Positions 15,728 through 35,856 of a stretch of DNA of 64,000 bases are shown piece after piece. Under the pieces are notes generated by a model that was not told the DNA's origin, searched no databases, and saw nothing but the letters and a program-made list of their open reading frames with translations. Position numbers and translations under genes: made by a program. The DNA comes from Aromatoleum buckelii (GTDB lineage: Bacteria; Pseudomonadota; Gammaproteobacteria; Burkholderiales; Rhodocyclaceae), in contig NZ_WTVH02000009.1 of the NCBI RefSeq assembly GCF_012910785.2, positions 372,001-436,000 of the forward strand. Direction: 5' to 3'. Numbering within the stretch: position 1 is the stretch's first letter; each line of letters opens with the position of its first letter.

Positions 15728-16705
15728 TCAGATCGCGACGCCCGAAGCGTCGAAAAGGCCTTCGAACAGGATCGAGCTGAGGTAGCGCTCGCCCGAGTCC
15801 GGCAGCACCACGACGATCGTCTTGCCGGCGTTCTCCGGGCGCTGGGCGATGCGCGCCGCTACCGCCACCGCGGCGCCGCACGAGATGCCGGACAGGATGC
15901 CTTCCTCGCGCGCGAGCCGGCGTGCGTAGAGAACCGCGTCTTCGTTGCTGACCGTCTCGACGGCATCGATCAGCGACAGGTCGAGCACTTTCGGCACGAA
16001 GCCGGCGCCGAGTCCCTGGATCTTGTGCGGCCCCGGTTTGAGCGGTTCTCCGGCGCGCGTTTGCGTCAGCACCGGGCTGGCTTCCGGTTCGACGGCGACC
16101 GAAACGATCGCCTTGCCGCGCGTCTCCTTGAAGTAACGCGACACGCCCGTGATCGTCCCGCCGGTACCGACGCCGGAAATGAAGATATCGACGTTGCCGT
16201 CGGTGTCGTTCCAGATCTCCGGGCCCGTCGTCGACGCGTGGATCGCCGGATTGGCGGGGTTGTTGAACTGTTGCAGCAGCACGTAGCGACCCGGGTCGGA
16301 TGCGGCGATTTCCTCGGCTTTCGCGATCGCGCCGTTCATGCCCTTGGCACCTTCGGTCAGCACCAGTTTCGCCCCGTATGCGACGAGGAGCTTGCGACGC
16401 TCGACGCTCATCGTCTCGGGCATCGTCAGCGTGATCGGGAGGCCGCGCGCGGCGGCGACGAACGCCAGCGCGATGCCGGTGTTGCCGCTCGTCGGCTCGA
16501 CTATTTCCTTGCCGGGACCGAGCAGGCCGCGTTGCTCGGCGTCCCAGATCATCGCGGCGCCGATACGGCACTTCACCGAATAGGCGGGGTTGCGGCCTTC
16601 GATTTTCGCAAGGACAGTCGCCGCGGCGCCGTCGGTGACGCGATTCAGTTTGACTAGCGGCGTCTTGCCGATCGACAAGGCGTTGTCGGAATACCAGTTC
16701 GACAT
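15728..16705 (-). CDS. cysK: Cysteine synthase A (O-acetylserine sulfhydrylase)
   Basis: PLP enzyme forming cysteine from O-acetylserine and sulfide. 325 residues. PLP lysine at position 45 in [13 protein letters not shown]; the substrate loop TSGNTGIAL and the phosphate cup [10 protein letters not shown] are intact. The C-terminus [13 protein letters not shown] resembles CysK, not CysM. ATG at 16705. It is monocistronic as far as can be seen. Confidence 0.92.
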
Positions 16706-17153: not shown

Positions 17154-17168
17154 TGGCACAGCTCTTGC
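17154..17168 (+). promoter_or_regulatory. Sigma-54 promoter of the amyloid-like operon
   Basis: TGGCAC - AGCTC - TTGC: exact -24 and -12 elements with the required GG-N10-GC spacing. Expected transcription start is near 17180, leaving a 47-nt leader with GAAGGGGAAG before the ATG at 17227. A sigma-54 activator gene sits at the other end of the locus. Confidence 0.8.
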
Positions 17169-17226
17169 GCAGTGTCCGCACCGGGCCTGGCATGGGGCTG
17201 GCCCTGGCTCTCGAAGGGGAAGTGCA

Positions 17227-22217: not shown

Positions 22218-23558
22218 CTATAGAACGATTTTCAGGCGGTCGATCATGCGATACAGCGTCACGCGCGAAATGCCGAGCTGCCGGGCGACTTCCGAAACGT
22301 TGTTGCGGTACTTCTGGAGACTGCTGATGATGACTTCCTTTTCGACCGTCGCGCGCACTTCGTCGAGCGTCGGGCCGATGCCGGGCATCTCGGGCGCGGC
22401 GATGCCCAAGTCGGCGGCGGTGATGAGCCTTGACTCGGTCATGATCATGGCGCACTGAACGCGATTGATCAGTTCGCGCACGTTGCCCGGCCACGGGTAT
22501 TCCCACATCGCATGAACCGCCTCCGAACTGAAGCCTTTCACCTGCGAACTCTTCTGGTGCCGGTTCTGGGTGAAGATCGAATTGGCGAGCAGCGGAATGT
22601 CGCTGGTGCGTTCGCGCAGGGGCGGCACCTTGAGGTGCAGGACGTTGAGCCGATAGAAAAGATCTTCGCGAAACCGCCCCTGCTCGACGGCGCGCTCGAG
22701 GTCGACGTGCGTCGCCGCGATCACCCGCACGTCGACGCGGATGCGCTCGGTGGAACCGACGCGGACGATCGTCTTTTCCTGCAGGAAACGCAGCAGGTTC
22801 ACTTGCAGATCGAGGGGCAGGTCGCCGATTTCGTCGAGGAACAGGACGCCGCGATCGGCGGTTTCGATATTTCCGATCTTGCGCTGGTGCGCTCCCGTGA
22901 ACGCGCCGCGCTCGTGGCCAAACAGCTCGGACTGGATCAGATTCGGCGCAATCGCACCGCAGTTCATCGTGACGAACGGCGCATCCGTGCGGGCCGAATA
23001 GCGGTGGATCGCGTTTGCGACGAGTTCCTTGCCGGTGCCCGATTCGCCGCCGATCAGCACCGGCGCGTCGACACCGACGATCTTGTCGATCTGGTTGAAG
23101 AGCTGAAGCATCCTGGCGTGACGTCCGACCATGCCGAACCGGCTGTCGCCTTCCCCGCTTCGAGGCGAGCAGCCCTCGATGCTCTGCAGCATGAATGCCT
23201 TGCCGTAAGCATGGCCCAGCGTGACCGTCAGGCGTTCTCGGTCGAGCGGCAGCGTGTGAAAGTCGTGGAAATTGCGCAACACCATCGGCCCGTGCTCCTG
23301 GTTGCGCAGCAGATCCTTGCCGAGGATCGCGATCCATTCGACGTCGTTGGAGATCAGCGCTTCCATTTCGCGCGCAGGCCAGGGGTGCGCCGAACTGAAA
23401 GCCACCAGACCGACCAGCGGCGAGCCGGCCGTCAACGCCTTGCGGGCCTCATCAATGGATGAAACCACCTGAAATTCCCACCCGATCAAGCTCATGCTTG
23501 TCAGGTCGGCAGCCACTTCGCCGGTCTGATCCAGCAGCAAGCCTTTACGTTTCGCCAT
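22218..23558 (-). CDS. VpsR-type sigma-54 dependent activator
   Basis: Enhancer-binding protein that opens sigma-54 promoters. 446 residues. The N-terminal 1-130 is receiver-like in size but lacks a clear phospho-aspartate motif, as in VpsR of Vibrio, which answers to cyclic di-GMP. The AAA+ domain spans about 137-370 with Walker A GGESGTGKE, the sigma-54 loop GAFTGAHQR and Walker B GVLFLDEIGD. The C-terminal Fis-type helix-turn-helix has VSEVARQLGISRVTLYRMI. The likely target is the sigma-54 promoter at 17154. It is co-transcribed with the barrel gene. The cyclic di-GMP link is inference from the family. Confidence 0.85.
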   Translation of the reverse strand: MAKRKGLLLDQTGEVAADLTSMSLIGWEFQVVSSIDEARKALTAGSPLVGLVAFSSAHPWPAREMEALISNDVEWIAILGKDLLRNQEHGPMVLRNFHDFHTLPLDRERLTVTLGHAYGKAFMLQSIEGCSPRSGEGDSRFGMVGRHARMLQLFNQIDKIVGVDAPVLIGGESGTGKELVANAIHRYSARTDAPFVTMNCGAIAPNLIQSELFGHERGAFTGAHQRKIGNIETADRGVLFLDEIGDLPLDLQVNLLRFLQEKTIVRVGSTERIRVDVRVIAATHVDLERAVEQGRFREDLFYRLNVLHLKVPPLRERTSDIPLLANSIFTQNRHQKSSQVKGFSSEAVHAMWEYPWPGNVRELINRVQCAMIMTESRLITAADLGIAAPEMPGIGPTLDEVRATVEKEVIISSLQKYRNNVSEVARQLGISRVTLYRMIDRLKIVL

Positions 23559-24497: not shown

Positions 24498-24529
24498 CGT
24501 TCGATTTCCGTACGTTCCTCCGTTTTCCG
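24498..24529 (+). promoter_or_regulatory. Candidate AcxR upstream activating site of acxA
   Basis: CGTTCGATTTCCG (24498-24510) occurs again at 33496-33508, upstream of acxR. It ends 125 bp before the acxA -24 element; at acxR the distance is 121 bp. The core TTTCCG is repeated at 24524-24529. AcxR binding is inference. Confidence 0.55.
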
Positions 24530-24634
24530 ATCGGCCGTGTCGGTCGATGACATTTGGTGCGGTGCAATGACAATGATTTTGAAAACCTTTATCCGCAGGT
24601 GTTTTGCGACTGCTGCAATGCAGCGGAAAGAGAG

Positions 24635-24649
24635 TGGCACAGACGGTGC
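24635..24649 (+). promoter_or_regulatory. Sigma-54 promoter of the acx operon
   Basis: TGGCAC - AGACG - GTGC: correct GG-N10-GC spacing and a full -24 element; only one base of the -12 element departs from TTGC. The expected start near 24661 gives a leader of about 50 nt to acxA. The operon's own activator, AcxR, is sigma-54 dependent. Confidence 0.75.
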
Positions 24650-24712
24650 AATAAGACATTCGGGGGCCGGCAGGATCGGCGACTCGCTAATCAAGAGGAG
24701 ATGGAGATAAAC

Positions 24713-26863
24713 ATGGAAGTCCTACAGGCATCACAAGTACAGGTGCTGGGTATCGACGCCGGCGGCACGATGACCGATACCTTCTTCGTGCGCGGGGATG
24801 GTCGTTTCGTCGTCGGCAAGGCCCAGAGCAATCCCGGGGACGAATCCCTGGCGATCTACAACTCGTCAGTCGACGCGCTGGCACACTGGGGGCGGGAAGT
24901 CGACGACGTCTATCCGGAGCTGGCGACCTGCGTCTACTCGGGCACCGCGATGCTCAACCGCGTGCTGATGCGCAAGGGCCTCGACGTCGGCCTGATCTGC
25001 AACCGCGGCTTCGAGCAGATCCATTCGATGGGCCGCGCGCTGCAAAGCTACCTCGGCTACGCGCTCGAGGACCGCATCCACCTCAACACCCACCGCTACG
25101 ACGAGCCGCTGGTGCCGGTGTCCCGGACCCGCGGCGTAACCGAGCGCACCGACGTGCAGGGCAAGATTGTGATCCCGCTGCGCGAGGAAGAAGTGCGCCA
25201 GGCCACCCGGGAGCTGGTCGAGGCCGGCTCGCAGGCCATCGTTATTTGCCTGCTGCAGTCGCACAAGAACGAGAAGAGCGAGCAGCGCGCCCGCGACCTG
25301 GCCAGGGAAGAGCTCAAGGCGCTCGGCGTCGACATTCCGGTCTTCGCGTCGGTGGACTACTACCCGTCGCGCAAGGAAAGCCATCGCATGAACACGACGA
25401 TTCTCGAGGCCTATGGTGCCGAACCGTCGCGCCAGACGCTGAAGAAGGTCAGCGACCGTTTCAAGAAGCACGGCGCGAAGTTCGACCTGCGGGTGATGGC
25501 GACGCACGGCGGCACCATCAGCTGGAAAGCCAAGGAGCTGGCGCGCACGATCGTCTCCGGGCCGATCGGCGGCGTGATCGGCTCCAAGCTCCTCGGTGAG
25601 TACCTTGGTGACGAGAACATCGCGTGTTCGGACATCGGCGGCACGTCGTTCGACGTCGCGCTGATCACCAAGGGCAGTTTCGCGATCAAGTCCGACCCCG
25701 ACATGGCGCGACTGGTGCTGTCGCTGCCGTTGGTGGCGATGGATTCGGTCGGCGCCGGCGCAGGCAGCTTCGTGCGCCTGGACCCGTACTCGAAGTCGCT
25801 CAAGCTCGGGCCTGACAGCGCCGGCTACCGCGTCGGCACGTGCTGGCCGGAAAGCGGACTGGACACCGTGTCGGTGTCCGACTGCCACGTCGTGCTCGGC
25901 TACCTGAACCCGAACAACTTCCTCGGCGGCGCGATCAAGCTCGACGTGCAGCGCGCACGCGACCACATCAAGGCGCAGATCGCCGACCCGCTGGGGCTGT
26001 CGGTCGAGGACGCCGCGGCCGGCGTCATCGAGCTGCTCGACCTCACGCTGTCCGAGTACCTGCGCGCGAACATCAGCGCGAAGGGCTACAACCCGGCCGA
26101 GTTCACGTGCTTCTCGTACGGCGGCGCCGGCCCGGTCCACACCTACGGCTACACCGAGGGAGTCGGCTTCAAGGATGTCGTTGTGCCCGCTTGGGCGGCC
26201 GGCTTCTCGGCTTTCGGCTGCGCCTGCGCCGACTTCGAGTACCGCTACGACAAGTCGGTCGACCTGGGCGTCGCCCAGCTCGCGAGCGACGAGGTGAAGG
26301 CCGCCGCCTGCGCGACCTTGCAGGAAGCCTGGAGCGAGCTCGCGACGAAGGTCATCGAGGAGTTCGTCATCAATGGCTACAAGCCCGAAGACGTGATGCT
26401 GATCCCCGGCTACAAGATGCAGTACATGGGCCAGTTGAACGACCTCGAGATCGTCTCACCGGTGTCCACCGCCGCGACCGCCGCCGACTGGCAGCAGATC
26501 ATCGAGGCCTTCGAGAACATGTACGGCCGGGTCTATGCAAAGTCCGCCCGTTCGCCGGAGCTGGGCTTCTCGGTCACCGGCGCGATCCTGCGCGGTACCG
26601 TCGTGACGCAAAAGCCGGTGCTGCCGGAAGACCCGGACTGCGGCCCGACGCCGCCGAAGGAGGCCTACCTCGGCACCCGCCCGTTCTATCGCAAGAAGAA
26701 GTGGGTCGATGCCGCGCTGTGGAAGATGGAAGCGCTCAAGGCGGGCAACCACATCGTCGGCCCCGCGATCATCGAATCGGATGCGACGACTTTCGTGGTG
26801 CCGGACGGCTTCGAAACCACGATCGACAAGCACCGCCTGTTCCATCTCAAAGAAGCCCGGTAG
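24713..26863 (+). CDS. acxA: Acetone carboxylase, AcxA (HyuA-like) subunit
   Basis: With AcxB and AcxC carboxylates acetone to acetoacetate using bicarbonate and ATP (forming AMP and two phosphate). 716 residues, close to the Xanthobacter AcxA length. Nucleotide-binding phosphate loops of the hydantoinase-A fold are visible: GIDAGGTMTDTFF near residue 13, SDIGGTSFDVA near 305 and FSYGGAGPVH near 470. The start is the ATG at 24713, six bases after GGAG; an ATG at 24701 sits directly on another GGAG with no spacing. First gene of the acetone operon. Confidence 0.93.
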   Translation: MEVLQASQVQVLGIDAGGTMTDTFFVRGDGRFVVGKAQSNPGDESLAIYNSSVDALAHWGREVDDVYPELATCVYSGTAMLNRVLMRKGLDVGLICNRGFEQIHSMGRALQSYLGYALEDRIHLNTHRYDEPLVPVSRTRGVTERTDVQGKIVIPLREEEVRQATRELVEAGSQAIVICLLQSHKNEKSEQRARDLAREELKALGVDIPVFASVDYYPSRKESHRMNTTILEAYGAEPSRQTLKKVSDRFKKHGAKFDLRVMATHGGTISWKAKELARTIVSGPIGGVIGSKLLGEYLGDENIACSDIGGTSFDVALITKGSFAIKSDPDMARLVLSLPLVAMDSVGAGAGSFVRLDPYSKSLKLGPDSAGYRVGTCWPESGLDTVSVSDCHVVLGYLNPNNFLGGAIKLDVQRARDHIKAQIADPLGLSVEDAAAGVIELLDLTLSEYLRANISAKGYNPAEFTCFSYGGAGPVHTYGYTEGVGFKDVVVPAWAAGFSAFGCACADFEYRYDKSVDLGVAQLASDEVKAAACATLQEAWSELATKVIEEFVINGYKPEDVMLIPGYKMQYMGQLNDLEIVSPVSTAATAADWQQIIEAFENMYGRVYAKSARSPELGFSVTGAILRGTVVTQKPVLPEDPDCGPTPPKEAYLGTRPFYRKKKWVDAALWKMEALKAGNHIVGPAIIESDATTFVVPDGFETTIDKHRLFHLKEAR

Positions 26864-26954: not shown

Positions 26955-29279
26955 ATGAACATGATGACTAACAAGGAAGTCGGCTTTGCCGACCTGCTGA
27001 AGAACGGTCAAACGCTCAAGCAGTTCCGTGACGGCATCCTGGAGCGCACGAAGACCTCGGGCCACTACAACGGCCTGGAAAAGCTGGAACTGCGTGACTC
27101 GGACCCGATCGGCTATGAAAAGCTGTTCTCGAAGCTGCGCGGCGGCCTGGTGCATGCGCGGGAGACCGCGAAGAAAATCGCGGCGAGCCCGATCGTCGAG
27201 CAGGAAGGCGAGCTGTGCTTCACGTTGTACAACGCCGTCGGCGACTGCGTGCTGACTTCGACCGGCATCATCATCCACGTCGGCACGATGGGCGCGGCGA
27301 TCAAGTACATGATCGAGAACAACTGGGAAGGCAACCCCGGCATCAATCCCGGTGACATGTTCACGAACAACGACTGCTCGATCGGCAACGTGCATCCGTG
27401 CGACATCGCGACGATCGTGCCGATCTTCTGGGAAGGCCGGCTGATCGGCTGGGTCGGCGGCGTCACGCACGTCATCGACACCGGCGCGGTGACGCCGGGC
27501 TCGATGTCGACCGGCCAGACGCAGCGCTTCGGCGACGGCTACATGATCACCTGCCGCAAGACGGGCATCAACGACGAACCGCTGCGCGACTGGCTGCACG
27601 AATCGCAGCGTTCGGTGCGCACGCCGAAGTACTGGATTCTCGACGAGAAGACCCGCATCGCCGGCTGCCACATGATCCGCGAGCTGGTCGAGGACGTGAT
27701 CCGCGCCGACGGCATCGAAGCCTACGAGAAGTTCGCCTATGAAGTCATCGAGGAAGGCCGCCGGGGCCTGATGAACCGCATCAAGGCGATGACGCTGCCG
27801 GGCAAGTATCGCAAGGTGTCCTTCGTCGATGTGCCGTTCAAGCACGAGGACGTTCAGGTGTCGAACGCCTTCGCCAAGCTCGACTCGATCATGCACTCGC
27901 CGTGCGAGATGACGATCAAGGCCGACGGCAAGTGGCGCCTCGACTTCGAAGGCGCGAGCCGCTGGGGCTGGCACACCTTCAACGCCCACCAGGTCGCGTT
28001 CACGTCGGGCATCTGGGTGATGATGTGCCAGACGCTGGTGCCGACGCAGCGGATCAACGACGGCGCGTACTTCGCGACCGAGTTCCATCTGCCGAAAGGC
28101 ACTTGGTGCAACCCGGATGACCGGCGCACCGGCCACGCCTACGCCTGGCACTTCCTCGTGTCGGGATGGTCGGCGCTGTGGCGCGGTTTGAGCCAGTCCT
28201 ACTTCAGCCGCGGCTACCTCGAAGAGGTCAACGCCGGCAACGCCAATACGTCGAACTGGCTGCAGGGCGGGGGCATCAACCAGGACGGCGAGATCCACGC
28301 GGTCAATAGCTTCGAAGCTTCGTCCTGCGGTACCGGTGCGTGCGCGGTCAAGGACGGCCTGAACCACGCCGCCGCGATCTGGAACCCGGAAGGCGACATG
28401 GGCGACATCGAGATCTGGGAAATGGCCGAGCCGCTGCTGTACATGGGCCGCAACGTCAAGGCCAACTCGGGCGGCTACGGCAAGTACCGTGGCGGCTGCG
28501 GCTTCGAGACGCTGCGCATGGTGTGGAACGCCCAGGACTGGACGATGTTCTTCATGGGCAACGGCTTCATGAACAGCGACTGGGGAATGATGGGCGGCTA
28601 TCCGGCGGCGACCGGCTACCGCTTCGAAGCCCACAAGACCGGCCTCGAGCGTCGCATCGCCAACGGCGAAAGCCTGCCGCTGGGCGGCGACATCGACCCC
28701 GCTGCGCCGACCTACGAGCACAACATCGACGCGACCGCGCGTATCAAGCGCGACAAGCAGTGCATGACCACCGAGGACTGCTACGACAACCACGACCTGT
28801 ACCTGAACTACCTGCGCGGTGGCCCGGGCTTCGGTGATCCGTTCGACCGCGAGCCGAAAGCGATCGAGAAGGACCTGAACGAGAAATTCCTGCTGCCGGA
28901 ATTCGCGAAAAAGGTCTACGGCGCGGTGTTCACGCAGGACGCGAAGGGCGTGTTCAGCGTCGATGCGGCCGCTACCCAAACCCGTCGCGCGGAGCTGCGC
29001 AAGGAACGTCTGGCCCGTGCGGTCCCGGTGCGCGAATGGATGAAGGAAGAGCGCGAACGCATCATCAACAAGCACGCGTCGCAGGCGGTGCAGCACATGT
29101 TTGCGACGAGCTTCGCACTGTCGGAAAAGTTCACCAAGCAGTTCAAGGACTTCTGGAGCCTGCCGGACGACTGGCAACTGCTCGAGACCGAGCTCGGCGT
29201 GCCGTCCTACGGTTCCAAGCACCGCATGGACCTGTCGCTGATGCCGGGCGTCACGACCGTCGTCCAGGTCGAAGAGTGA
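26955..29279 (+). CDS. acxB: Acetone carboxylase, AcxB (HyuB-like) subunit
   Basis: Largest subunit of acetone carboxylase, of the hydantoinase-B family, carrying the metal (Mn) site where carboxylation occurs in the characterised enzymes. 774 residues, in line with the family. Seen: GDMFTNNDCSIGNVHPCD near residue 135, GGVTHVIDTGAVTPG near 172 and GGCGFETLRMVW in the last third. ATG at 26955 with GAGGAG nine bases upstream. Codon use is uniformly GC-rich like acxA. Confidence 0.93.
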   Translation: MNMMTNKEVGFADLLKNGQTLKQFRDGILERTKTSGHYNGLEKLELRDSDPIGYEKLFSKLRGGLVHARETAKKIAASPIVEQEGELCFTLYNAVGDCVLTSTGIIIHVGTMGAAIKYMIENNWEGNPGINPGDMFTNNDCSIGNVHPCDIATIVPIFWEGRLIGWVGGVTHVIDTGAVTPGSMSTGQTQRFGDGYMITCRKTGINDEPLRDWLHESQRSVRTPKYWILDEKTRIAGCHMIRELVEDVIRADGIEAYEKFAYEVIEEGRRGLMNRIKAMTLPGKYRKVSFVDVPFKHEDVQVSNAFAKLDSIMHSPCEMTIKADGKWRLDFEGASRWGWHTFNAHQVAFTSGIWVMMCQTLVPTQRINDGAYFATEFHLPKGTWCNPDDRRTGHAYAWHFLVSGWSALWRGLSQSYFSRGYLEEVNAGNANTSNWLQGGGINQDGEIHAVNSFEASSCGTGACAVKDGLNHAAAIWNPEGDMGDIEIWEMAEPLLYMGRNVKANSGGYGKYRGGCGFETLRMVWNAQDWTMFFMGNGFMNSDWGMMGGYPAATGYRFEAHKTGLERRIANGESLPLGGDIDPAAPTYEHNIDATARIKRDKQCMTTEDCYDNHDLYLNYLRGGPGFGDPFDREPKAIEKDLNEKFLLPEFAKKVYGAVFTQDAKGVFSVDAAATQTRRAELRKERLARAVPVREWMKEERERIINKHASQAVQHMFATSFALSEKFTKQFKDFWSLPDDWQLLETELGVPSYGSKHRMDLSLMPGVTTVVQVEE

Positions 29280-29318: not shown

Positions 29319-29822
29319 ATGACCTACACGAATGAGCAGGTTTCGCACTTGGTCGAGGGCACGCTCGACTGGGACACGACTTTCCGCATGCTGTCGATGC
29401 CGAAGGACAACGAGCGCTTCGGCCAGTACCTCGCCGCGCTGCAGAGCAAGGTGAGCTTCAAGGACCGCATCGTGCTGCCGCTGTCGCCGCACATGTACAT
29501 CGTGCAGTCGGCGAAGACCAAGCAGTGGGTCATCAAGTGTGACTGCGGCCACGAGTTCTGCGACTACACCGACAACTGGAAGATGCACGCATTGATCCAC
29601 GTGCGCGACACCGAGGAGGCGATGGCCGAGATCTATCCGAAGCTGATGGCGCCCGACACGAACTGGCAGGTGTACCGCGAATACTTCTGCCCGACCTGCG
29701 GCGTGATGCACGACGTCGAGGCGCCGACCCCGTGGTACCCGGTGATCCACGACTTCGAGCCGGACATCGAAGCGTTCTACAAGGACTGGGTCGGCTTGCC
29801 GGTGCCCGAACGCGCAGCCTGA
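29319..29822 (+). CDS. acxC: Acetone carboxylase, AcxC (gamma) subunit
   Basis: Small subunit of the heterohexameric carboxylase. 167 residues. Two cysteine clusters are visible, CDCGHEFC near residue 70 and CPTCGVMHD near 127, suited to zinc binding. The family segment WKMHALIHVRDTEEAM is present. ATG at 29319 behind AAGGAG. A GC-rich hairpin follows before the acyl-CoA synthetase. Confidence 0.92.
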   Translation: MTYTNEQVSHLVEGTLDWDTTFRMLSMPKDNERFGQYLAALQSKVSFKDRIVLPLSPHMYIVQSAKTKQWVIKCDCGHEFCDYTDNWKMHALIHVRDTEEAMAEIYPKLMAPDTNWQVYREYFCPTCGVMHDVEAPTPWYPVIHDFEPDIEAFYKDWVGLPVPERAA

Positions 29823-29850: not shown

Positions 29851-30036
29851 GCCTGCGGGCCGGCGCTTCCCGTGACGGGGAGCACCGGCCCCGGAGCCGC
29901 GCTCCGCCTCGCGCCGTTTCTCCCTCTTCAAGCAACGAGCCATGCGAGGCGAATGCCCCGCAGGACTCCGGCATGCCAAAAAAATGAAACTCGCGCCGTT
30001 CCGGGGCGTGAAGGACAAGGGGAGGAGGACTCCGCG

Positions 30037-32031
<1,995 letters not shown>

Positions 32032-32050
32032 TTTTTACCAGGAGAACCTT

Positions 32051-32749
32051 ATGAGCAAAGTGTATTCGGACGCCGGTTCCGCGCTGGCCGACGTCGTACG
32101 GGACGGCCAGACCGTCGCGGTCGGAGGCTTCGGCCTGTGCGGCATCCCCGAGCAGCTGATCCACGGCCTGCGCGACGCAAAGGTCAAGGACCTGACCGTG
32201 ATCAGCAACAACGCAGGCGTCGACGGCATCGGCCTCGGCCTGCTGCTCGAGACGCGGCAGATCCGCAAGATGGTCGCGTCCTACGTCGGCGAGAACGCCG
32301 AATTCGAGCGCCAGCTGCTCGCCGGCGAACTCGAAGTCGAGCTCACGCCGCAGGGCACGCTCGCCGAGAAGCTGCGCGCCGGGGGAGCCGGCATTCCGGC
32401 GTTCTACACCCGCACCGGCGTCGGCACCCTCGTCGCGGAAGGCAAGGAGGAGCGCGACATCGATGGCAAGCGCTACCTGCTCGAGCGTTCGCTCACGGCC
32501 GACGTCGCGCTCGTCAAGGCGTGGAAGGCCGACCGGGCTGGCAACCTCGTCTATCGCAAGACCGCGCGCAACTTCAATCCGGTGGTCGCCACCGCCGGAC
32601 GCATCACCGTTGCGGAAGTCGAGGAACTGGTCGACACCGGCACGCTCGATCCCGACCACATCCACACCCCGGGCGTCTTCGTCCAGCGCATCGTCGTCAA
32701 TCCGCGCCCGACGAAACACATCGAACAACGCACCGTGAGGGAGGGATGA
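32051..32749 (+). CDS. scoA: 3-oxoacid CoA-transferase, subunit A
   Basis: Moves CoA from succinyl-CoA to acetoacetate (or similar 3-oxoacid). 232 residues of the alpha subunit: [14 protein letters not shown] near residue 25 (the oxyanion glycine loop), [15 protein letters not shown] and [10 protein letters not shown]. The start is the ATG at 32051 after AGGAGA. The stop lies directly before subunit B. Confidence 0.92.
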
Positions 32750-32751
32750 CC

Positions 32752-33399
32752 ATGGCCTGGACACGCAACGAGATGGCCCGCCGCGCGGCGCAGGAGCTGC
32801 GCGACGGTTTCTACGTGAACCTCGGCATCGGCATGCCGACGCTGGTCGCGAACCATATTCCCGATGGCATGGACGTGTGGCTGCAGTCGGAAAACGGCCT
32901 GCTCGGCATCGGGCCGTTTCCGACCGATGCCGAGGTCGACGCCGATCTCATCAACGCCGGAAAGCAGACCGTCACGACGCTCGCCGGCAGCAGCATCTTC
33001 AGCAGCGCCGACTCCTTCGCGATGATCCGCGGGGGCCACATCGATCTGGCGATCCTCGGCGCGATGCAGGTCAGCGAGCACGGCGACCTCGCCAACTGGA
33101 TGATCCCGGGCAAGCTGGTCAAAGGCATGGGTGGGGCGATGGACCTGGTCGCCGGAGTGCGTCGCGTCGTGGTGATGATGGAGCACTGCAGCAAGGGCGG
33201 CGAGCCGAAGATACTGCGTCGCTGCGAGCTGCCGCTGACGGGGGCAGGAGTCGTGAACCGCATCATCACCGACCTGTGCGTGCTCGACGTCACGCCACGC
33301 GGGCTGCGGTTGCTGGAGACCGCGCCGGGAGTCGGCATCGAGGACGTCATCGCGCGAACCGGCGCGCCGGTCGACGTCGAGGAGATGGTGATCGACTGA
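32752..33399 (+). CDS. scoB: 3-oxoacid CoA-transferase, subunit B
   Basis: Catalytic subunit; forms the glutamyl-CoA intermediate. 215 residues. Active glutamate in [11 protein letters not shown] near residue 45; [11 protein letters not shown] at the start and [18 protein letters not shown] in the middle are hallmarks. The ATG at 32752 has GGGAGGG six bases upstream; an overlapping ATG at 32746 is possible. Last gene of the acx operon. Confidence 0.93.
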
Positions 33400-33495: not shown

Positions 33496-33588
33496 CGTTC
33501 GATTTCCGGACGCCGTCCGACGCCGACCGTCCGGAAACCGGACGGTCGGCGATTTCACCTCCCGGACGCTCCGCCCCGGAGTGTCCGG
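33496..33588 (+). promoter_or_regulatory. Candidate AcxR site with nested dyads; possible end of the acx transcript
   Basis: CGTTCGATTTCCG at 33496-33508 matches the acxA site. TTTCCGGACG (33503-33512) pairs with CGTCCGGAAA (33528-33537). CGCCGACCGTCCGG (33521-33534) pairs with CCGGACGGTCGGCG (33538-33551), a perfect 14-bp stem with an AAA loop. CCGGACGCTCCG (33562-33573) pairs with CGGAGTGTCCGG (33577-33588) with one G-U. The first two share an arm and exclude each other. No U-run follows. Confidence 0.5.
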
Positions 33589-33628: not shown

Positions 33629-33643
33629 TGGCATCCATTTTGC
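33629..33643 (+). promoter_or_regulatory. Sigma-54 promoter of acxR
   Basis: TGGCAT - CCATT - TTGC (then TA): GG-N10-GC spacing is exact, and one base of the -24 element departs from TGGCAC. This suggests AcxR controls its own gene as well as acxA. Confidence 0.7.
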
Positions 33644-33813
33644 TATTCTGCTAAAGCTGCGACGGATGCTGATGTCGTGGCTTTCGATCAGCCGCAGAGC
33701 TGACCATCCCACAACACGTTCGACGGCGCCTTCGCGGGCAGAATCCACAAGACTTCATCCAATGGCCGTGCTTGCCTCGGCCCGCCGCGAAGCACGCCTG
33801 AGGAGGAGACTTG

Positions 33814-35856
33814 ATGACACGGATGCCGGAAGGGCAGATATTTTCCGACCCTCGTAACGACACTGCAGTGATGGCGGCGTGGGAACGCTTTCTCGACGGG
33901 GGCCGACCCGCCGATTCGCTGCGCACGCTCATCGACGGATCGTGGCAGCGCTGCCAGCAGCAGAATGTCGACCCGGACAAGTGCAGTGCGCCGCCGCCGG
34001 TCGAGGAATCGACGCTCTTCTCGCTCAAGCAGCACAACAGCGAACTGCTCGAAGCGAGCGCGCCGATCATGGCCTATGCACGGGATTTTCTCGCTGAAAC
34101 CGGCACGATGATGGTGCTCGCGGACACGAGCTGCACGATCCTGTCGACGGAAGGCGACGACCCGACGCTCGGAGTCGCGGAAAGCATCCACCTGATTCCC
34201 GGCGTGTCCTGGACCGAGCGAGTTTGCGGCACGAACGCGATCGGTACTGCGCTTGCCGTCGGGGAACCGGTGCAGATCCATTCGGCCGAGCATTACTGCG
34301 CCGGCATCAAGCGCTGGACGTGCTCGGCAACGGTGATCCGCCATCCGCACGATGGCGAGGTCATCGGGGTCGTCGATGTTTCCGGATTATCGGAAAGCTA
34401 CAGCCGGCAAAGTCTCGCGCTGGTCGTGACGACCGCCAGCCGCATCGAGAGCAAGATCGCGATGCGCGAGATGGAGCGGCGCTACGTGCTGCTCGATGCG
34501 TCGTTGCCGCGCTGGTCGGGCGCCGTGGCCGGACTGGTGCTGTTCGATCGCCGCGGGTATCCGGTCAAGATGAACGAGATCGCGCAGGCGGCGATGTCCG
34601 CTTTGGGTGCCGAAATCGATCTCGCCAAGCCGCGGCGCATGCCGGAGCTGGCGATCGACGAGCTCGGACAGTTGCGGCAGGACTGGGCCCTGCCGGCGTG
34701 GCTGCAGCGGGAATGGCTCGAGCCGGTGGTCGACAGCCGCGGCCAGCGGCTGGGGACGCTGCTCGTCGTGCCGTTGCCGCGCCTCGGGCGCGCCGTCTCG
34801 GGCGAAGGCGCACGGGACTTGTCACGCGAGCCTGCCCGCTGGGAGGCCAACCTCCCCGCGGGCTTCGCGACGATTGTCACGCGCGACCCGGGGCTGCGCG
34901 AGGCGGTGCGCAAGGCCGACCAACTGGCGCGCTCGAAAGTGCCGGTGCTGCTGCTCGGCGAGACCGGCGTCGGCAAGGAGGAGTTCGCGCAGGGGTTGCA
35001 CAAGGCGAGTCCGTTCCGCGACGGCCCTTACGTCGCGCTGAACTGTGGGGGACTGACGCGCGAACTGCTCGCGAGCGAACTGTTCGGTTATGTCGAGGGG
35101 GCGTTTACCGGGGCGCGCCGTGGCGGTCTGGTCGGCAAGATCGAGGCCGCAAACGGCGGCACGCTGTTCCTCGACGAGATCGGTGAGATGCCGCTCGATC
35201 TGCAACCGCACCTGTTGCGCGTGCTCGAACAGAGCGAAATTTACCGGCTCGGCGAGAACGTGCCGCGCAAGGTCAATTTCCGCCTCATCGCGGCGACTCA
35301 CCGCGACCTGCGCAAGGAGGTTGCCGACGGGCGCTTCCGCATGGACTTCTACTATCGCGTCGCGGTGACGTCGGTGCGCATTCCGCCGCTGCGCGAGCGC
35401 TGCGGCGACGTGCGCGCCCTGGCAGAGCATTTCGTCGAACGCTTCTGCAAGCAGCACGACCTCGGGCCGCGGCGGCTCGACGACGAGCTGCTCGTGCATC
35501 TCGAAAACTATGCGTGGCCGGGCAACGTGCGGGAGCTGCGCAACGTCATCGAGAGCATGCTGCTGATGAGCGACCAGGAATGCGTCGGCCTCGACGCGCT
35601 GCCGCCGGAGCTGATGTCCGGCGCCGAGGCCGACACACCGGGCCTCCCGCCTCGCGCGGGACGCGAGGCCCGTGCAGTTGCGTCCGTAAGCAGCATCGCA
35701 CAGGGCGAAGTAGAGCTGATTCGCCGCGCGATCGCCACGACGCGCGGCAATCTCACGCGCGCCGCTCGCGAGCTCGATATCGCGAAGAGCACGCTGTACC
35801 AGAAGGTCAAGCTCTACGGACTCGAAAGCGAGATCGGCCGCATGCGGGGAAGTTGA
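33814..35856 (+). CDS. acxR: Sigma-54 dependent activator of the acetone operon (AcoR family)
   Basis: Enhancer-binding activator. 680 residues: N-terminal GAF-like sensor (about 60-300, with ISRGVSW-like segment [20 protein letters not shown]), and AAA+ domain with Walker [10 protein letters not shown] near 383, sigma-54 loop GAFTGARRG near 430 and Walker [12 protein letters not shown]. The C-terminal Fis helix-turn-helix is [19 protein letters not shown]. The start is the ATG at 33814 with AGGAGGA seven bases upstream. The position next to acxABC and the layout match AcxR of Xanthobacter. The inducer is probably acetone or a related ketone or alcohol (inference). Confidence 0.88.

Follow-up and report, generated by a model that had tools for sequence, protein, structure and literature searches.

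The inverted repeats upstream of acxA and acxR are best read as the upstream activating sequence (enhancer) of AcxR, driving both the acx operon and acxR itself. We assign this reading a probability of about 0.88, judged from comparative sequence evidence. The window, by which we mean the whole stretch of 64,000 nucleotides analysed, carries 17-bp dyads ahead of the sigma-54 promoters of acxA and acxR. Established at the sequence level are the dyads, their spacing, the promoters, their conservation among relatives and the change of the box together with the type of regulator. The predicted operator would be a new one of a known kind, the sigma-54 enhancer.

The genes acxABC and acxR are linked within 11.2 kb of the window, and the linkage is also found in relatives (Table 1). 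AcxR comprises GAF, sigma-54 activator (AAA+) and HTH_8 domains by Pfam, with GAFTGA present in the translation. The distance between acxA and acxR is 9.1 kb in the window and about 15.5 kb in same-genus genomes that have both genes on one contig; given this difference, the window seems to be without a gene block like that of locus L004, in which genes with BNR-repeat, MMPL transporter, DUF1302 and DUF1329 domains precede the synthetase gene (L004:10-6077).

Table 1. Genes, sigma-54 elements and predicted AcxR boxes of the acx locus in the window
Feature	Sequence	Position	Strand	Basis
acxA, acetone carboxylase subunit (hydantoinase A type)		24713..26863	+	Pfam
acxB, acetone carboxylase subunit (hydantoinase B type)		26955..29279	+	Pfam
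acxC, acetone carboxylase gamma subunit		29319..29822	+	Pfam
Acyl-CoA synthetase-like gene		29872..32031	+	Pfam AMP-binding, ACAS_N
CoA transferase subunit A		32015..32749	+	Pfam CoA_trans
CoA transferase subunit B		32752..33399	+	Pfam CoA_trans; start from sequence
acxR, GAF - AAA+ (GAFTGA) - Fis HTH activator of sigma-54 RNA polymerase		33814..35856	+	Pfam
acxA sigma-54 -24/-12 element	TGGCACAGACGGTGCA	24635..24650	+	By eye, scored
acxR sigma-54 -24/-12 element	TGGCATCCATTTTGCT	33629..33644	+	TGGCAYN5TTGCT
acxA main predicted AcxR-box dyad, CGTTCG-ATTTC-CGTACG	CGTTCGATTTCCGTACG	24498..24514	+	Best window position of cross-genus motif
acxA degenerate second site (tentative), 19 bp downstream of first	CCTCCGTTTTCCGATCG	24517..24533	+	Sixth-best window position
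acxR distal predicted AcxR-box dyad, CGTTCG-ATTTC-CGGACG	CGTTCGATTTCCGGACG	33496..33512	+	Second-best window position; conserved pair spacing
acxR proximal predicted AcxR-box dyad, CGTCCG-GAAAC-CGGACG	CGTCCGGAAACCGGACG	33528..33544	+	Third-best window position

The starting point was a sequence-only reading of the window, which had proposed a 13-mer shared by the two upstream regions as an AcxR box. The 13-mer, CGTTCGATTTCCG, is indeed exact at 24498-24510 and 33496-33508, its sole mismatch-free matches in the window. The distance from its end to the T of the sigma-54 element is 125 bp at acxA (TGGCAC, 24635) and 121 bp at acxR (TGGCAT, 33629), and the similarity goes on behind the 13-mer, with TACG following at acxA and GACG at acxR. 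Comparison among relatives supports a shared box while redrawing its limits: the putative box is a 17-bp dyad, roughly CGTYCG-RWWWY-CGRACG, of which the 13-mer is the larger part, and 16 of the 17 letters are equal between the acxA and acxR places. The dyads are inverted repeats upstream of the -24/-12 elements, centred 129 bp before the TGG at acxA and 125 and 93 bp before it at acxR. The layouts of the two promoters differ: acxA has a strong and a weak site at a spacing of 19 bp, acxR two strong ones at a spacing of 32 bp. The proximal acxR dyad, missed by the sequence-only reading, is enclosed by a perfect palindrome with 14-bp arms (33521-33551). A second, near-perfect palindrome with 12-bp arms lies at 33562-33588.

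Within the window alone, a chance match of the 13-mer would draw some support from shuffled sequence. Among 4,000 pairs of dinucleotide shuffles of both upstream stretches, some 13-mer was common to the two on the same strand in 10, and at equal distance (within 5 bp) in one; likewise, CGTTCGATTTCCG with two mismatches is no commoner in the window than in shuffles (4 found, 3.84 expected). The 4.16-Mb genome (10 contigs) contains three exact copies, the third of them within an ORF. Chance is nevertheless refuted, because the dyad is conserved at both promoters in other genera, and we regard it as practically dismissed.

To define the motif de novo, the acxR upstream sequences of 16 genomes outside the window's genus were used, and no acxA sequence was included. 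The input was cut before the sigma-54 element in a second search, because the first search had returned the sigma-54 element itself. The resulting motif, CGTTCGATTTTCGAACG, has a width of 17, and its top three positions in the 64-kb window are 24498, 33496 and 33528; a width-19 motif placed the same three on top. As a motif from the acxR genes of other genera ranks the window's acxA site first, this site was recovered independently of any acxA input. The weak copy at 24517 comes sixth, after two positions that lie outside both promoters (16596 and 27851). The former (16596-16612) is the fourth-best match to the dyad motif and lies within ORFs. The nearest sigma-54-like match seen, TGGCACAGCTCTTGC at 17154-17172, is about 550 bp beyond it, also within ORFs, and both are probably chance matches.

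Genome-wide, CGTYCGRNWNYCGRACG matched without mismatch only at the two acxR sites, with which in view the pattern had been drawn up; the acxA site departs from it by one mismatch. Allowing up to one mismatch gave 20 distinct places, three of them acx sites. Nine of the 17 further near matches were inspected, and these suggested no target: six lie in ORFs of at least 120 aa (weak coding evidence in GC-rich DNA), two in ribosomal protein genes and one in acxB (window 27851). Patterns with up to two mismatches were not enriched in the genome (246 versus 246), and the loose dyad CGTNCGN5CGNACG alone was uninformative at this scale, with 35 places compared to 33 for the reversed control. The signal of the dyad is carried by its centre letters and by pairing. 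On this sequence evidence, AcxR looks like a local regulator, with a further target possible among the other eight near matches.

For the comparison among relatives, acx loci were gathered from named genomes (30 loci) and from further relatives and plasmids, the latter contributing seven plasmid regions. A first upstream set comprised acxA matches of at least 60 % and acxR matches of at least 50 % identity that start near the start codon, with identical upstream sequences merged; fragments such as L032 and L033 dropped out. The enlarged set held 49 acxA entries and 58 regulator entries. Conservation was counted over the 32 regulators at least 62 % identical to AcxR and over 37 of the 49 acxA entries, the 12 left out being eight entries (seven loci) with a diverged regulator and four alphaproteobacterial ones.

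Upstream of acxR, at least one perfect CGTNCGN5CGNACG was present in 31 of the 32 sequences, at least two in 29 and two spaced 32–33 bp in 27. When one site had to be perfect and the other was allowed up to one mismatch, a pair was found in 30 of the 32 promoters, at a spacing of 32 bp in 15, 33 bp in 13 and 30 bp in 2. Restricting the count to 23 less similar acxR representatives gave the dyad in 22, two or more in 20 and the 32–33 bp pair in 19, whereas in 200 shuffles of these representatives a single dyad occurred in a mean of 0.125 sequences and a second one in none. The background rate was one dyad in 479,473 bp of flanking DNA (L004-L031). The sigma-54 element TGGCAYN5TTGCT was likewise exact in 31/32 acxR upstream sequences. 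An exception is L016, where acxR has the sigma-54 element and lacks the dyad. Five acxR genes of 58–61 % identity (L024, L025, L026, L030 and L145) have neither their own sigma-54 element nor a dyad. In L024, L025, L026 and L030, acxR starts 140–280 bp downstream of the synthetase gene or acxC, in the same orientation, so that it may be transcribed from the operon promoter in those loci.

Upstream of acxA, the perfect dyad was found in 23/37 sequences and in 18/31 representatives. Where the genome encodes an AcxR at least 62 % identical, it was present in 20 and absent in 7 of 27 acxA upstream sequences, which were hand-picked from the 37 with near-identical ones left unmerged; three of the remaining ten carried it. 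The perfect site is centred at -127 to -129 from the TGG in 18/27. That of L082, listed at -95, is counted from another candidate element and stands at -128 from the usual one. The matching distance proposed in the sequence-only reading therefore needs dividing: it is near-constant for the acxA site, and the paired acxR sites are centred anywhere between -206 and -74. The best second position at acxA was 18–20 bp away in 20 of 25 upstream sequences (hand-picked from the 49). Only eight of these 20 score above 11, and the weak second site at acxA is therefore tentative. The further proposal that AcxR controls its own gene is supported by this comparative evidence, from which we infer binding and the direction of the effect.

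Regulator type and box were also compared together. In some relatives, acxA lies near a diverged regulator with 42–43 % identity to AcxR and the recognition helix ISRSTLYVK. The acxA genes of these loci are 91–95 % identical, and TGTNCGN5CGNACA stands upstream in 6/7. One of them, L110, has a CGT...ACG dyad too, and L124 has neither box intact. With a close AcxR (helix IAKSTLYQK or a near variant), the acxA boxes are CGT...ACG in 20/27 and TGT...ACA in 0/27. The same joint change is seen inside the window's genus, where genome G154 combines the diverged regulator type and the matching box with an acxA 95 % identical to that of the window, and has no AcxR closer than 54 %. As the diverged regulators group in a single clade (support 100/100), the joint change represents one regulator type and few events. 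It is nonetheless the best sequence evidence for the regulator reading the box. The NifA box, TGT-N10-ACA, is a sigma-54 enhancer dyad as well. In contrast to it, the window's sites start with CGT and end with ACG, and even in the diverged group TGT and ACA are 11 bases apart, not 10. A sister group of activators, 52–55 % identical to AcxR (L077, L151 and L152, also L150 and L117), has the helix IAKSTLYLK or a near variant and similar upstream dyads spaced about 22–24 bp.

The joint change also bears on whether the dyads might serve another sigma-54 activator. An activator gene with a VpsR domain adjoins the acx genes (window 22218-23558, minus strand); it encodes a complete AAA+/Fis activator near acxA, and the genome as a whole holds 18 matches to AcxR at an E value of 1e-20 or better. 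However, the VpsR-domain neighbour has no close counterpart in the other loci, where the best matches are partial, 39–42 % identical and to generic activators, although many of these loci span only 1.5–2.5 kb beyond acxA. The dyad, in contrast, travels with acxR and changes with the acxR type. We consider service to such an activator very improbable, and retain AcxR as the predicted reader of the box.

In any one genome, the two sites upstream of acxR tend to mirror each other as reverse complements, and this extends to the variable letters. Over 22 distinct pairs, mean agreement at the seven variable positions was 5.3 for the mirror comparison within a genome, compared to 3.6 between genomes and 2.4 for the direct comparison within a genome. 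None of 20,000 partner shuffles reached the observed mirror agreement, either for the 22 pairs or for the 18 representatives to which the 30 site pairs had been reduced by way of the 22, although shared ancestry may inflate this test. Exact mirror images occur in 7/18 representative pairs, and the window's own pair agrees at five of the seven positions. T predominates in the distal centre and A in the proximal centre of 25/30 pairs; the pairs of L013, L017, L029, L021 and L004 go against the mirror tendency. It is possible, at rather less than even odds on these sequences, that the acxR enhancer is a single two-fold symmetric array, which tends to be kept so while its variable letters change between genera. 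If so, the array would represent either two oppositely facing AcxR dimers with unequal half-sites or correction by template switching, a concerted evolution of the enhancer, and differing array geometry would set a different output at acxA (19 bp) than at acxR (32–33 bp).

The mirror relationship could stem from a symmetric array of protein, from template switching (concerted evolution) or from pairing of RNA. RNA pairing is the weakest of these: folding of one site onto the other is lacking in 11 of 21 sequences, and at most four T are found in the eight bases behind the proximal site. The same observations count against the proposal that RNA hairpins, which end the acx operon transcript or stabilise its 3' end, account for the palindromes in the gap between the CoA transferase gene and acxR, rather than protein sites. 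The segment 33486-33600 does fold as RNA far better than its shuffles (z -6.9), the arms flanking the proximal dyad covary among the window and its three nearest relatives, and 10 of the 21 sequences fold site to site. However, no terminator-like site with a T-run was found, the letters are conserved beyond what pairing alone asks for, and the same dyad precedes acxA, which is not behind the operon. An intrinsic terminator was rejected as the main role, hairpins being present and the T-run absent. Hairpins as the explanation of the dyads are highly unlikely; a side role of the acxR-upstream palindromes as a hairpin is possible.

Under the preferred reading, in which the dyads are the AcxR enhancer, each 17-bp dyad would bind one AcxR dimer through the C-terminal helix-turn-helix. 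Acetone or a derivative would be the signal upon which AcxR assembles on its sites, from where it would loop to the -24/-12 element and contact sigma-54 RNA polymerase. In this way AcxR would open the promoter of the acetone operon, with a predicted extent of acxABC, the synthetase gene and the CoA transferase genes, and also that of its own gene, giving a positive feedback loop. The spacing of the acxR sites, 32 bp here and 32–33 bp in most relatives, would amount to about three helical turns; paired sites about three turns apart are also a feature of XylR/DmpR/HbpR-type activators. IHF-like sites between box and promoter are unsupported, the best having three mismatches.

Sigma-54 activator genes beside acetone carboxylase genes recur in other bacteria, reportedly including Xanthobacter autotrophicus Py2. 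The acx locus of Cupriavidus metallidurans CH34 resembles that of the window in this respect, but its type of regulator is 43 % identical to AcxR and divergent from acxA, with TGTCCG...CGGACA boxes. For CH34, the activator and a sigma-54 element are named and no binding site is given in the part of the source available (PMC2864759); for Methylorubrum extorquens CM4, the accessible sections describe a sigma-54 activator gene beside the acetone carboxylase cluster (PMC3621897). Palindromic activating sites 100–200 bp upstream of a sigma-54 promoter are described in the available portions of the work on DmpR (PMC7264223) and HbpR (PMC3040749). Compared to the XylR/DmpR/HbpR type, AcxR has a GAF sensor domain and other box letters, and a conserved sigma-54 promoter carrying the box also precedes acxR itself. 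In the Clostridiales, boxes of AcoR-type activators have been defined comparatively, with similar boxes corresponding to similar DNA-binding domains; these belong to another phylum, and AcxR is not in the part of the regulon table covered (PMC6615313, in part). In Paraburkholderia phymatum nodules, a nifA mutant showed raised levels of both the operon and the regulator gene behind acxABC, according to the part of PMC8305402 available. The corresponding locus, L126, has a perfect dyad before acxA and another before the regulator. An AcxR binding site is absent from the available parts of PMC2864759, PMC3621897, PMC6615313, PMC8784404, PMC8305402, PMC7264223 and PMC3040749. None was found described in the full-text literature searched, from which subscription journals are mostly excluded, and an earlier description is possible.

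For the regulator of acetone carboxylase in Aromatoleum, Thauera, Azoarcus and related bacteria, these results provide the exact predicted operator letters, and with them candidate parts for acetone sensors. The swap of regulator type and box at a nearly unchanged operon offers a naturally occurring experiment on how activators of this kind change their specificity. For the acetone system itself, the predicted enhancer would imply positive feedback, with a different geometry of sites at the target than at the regulator's own gene.
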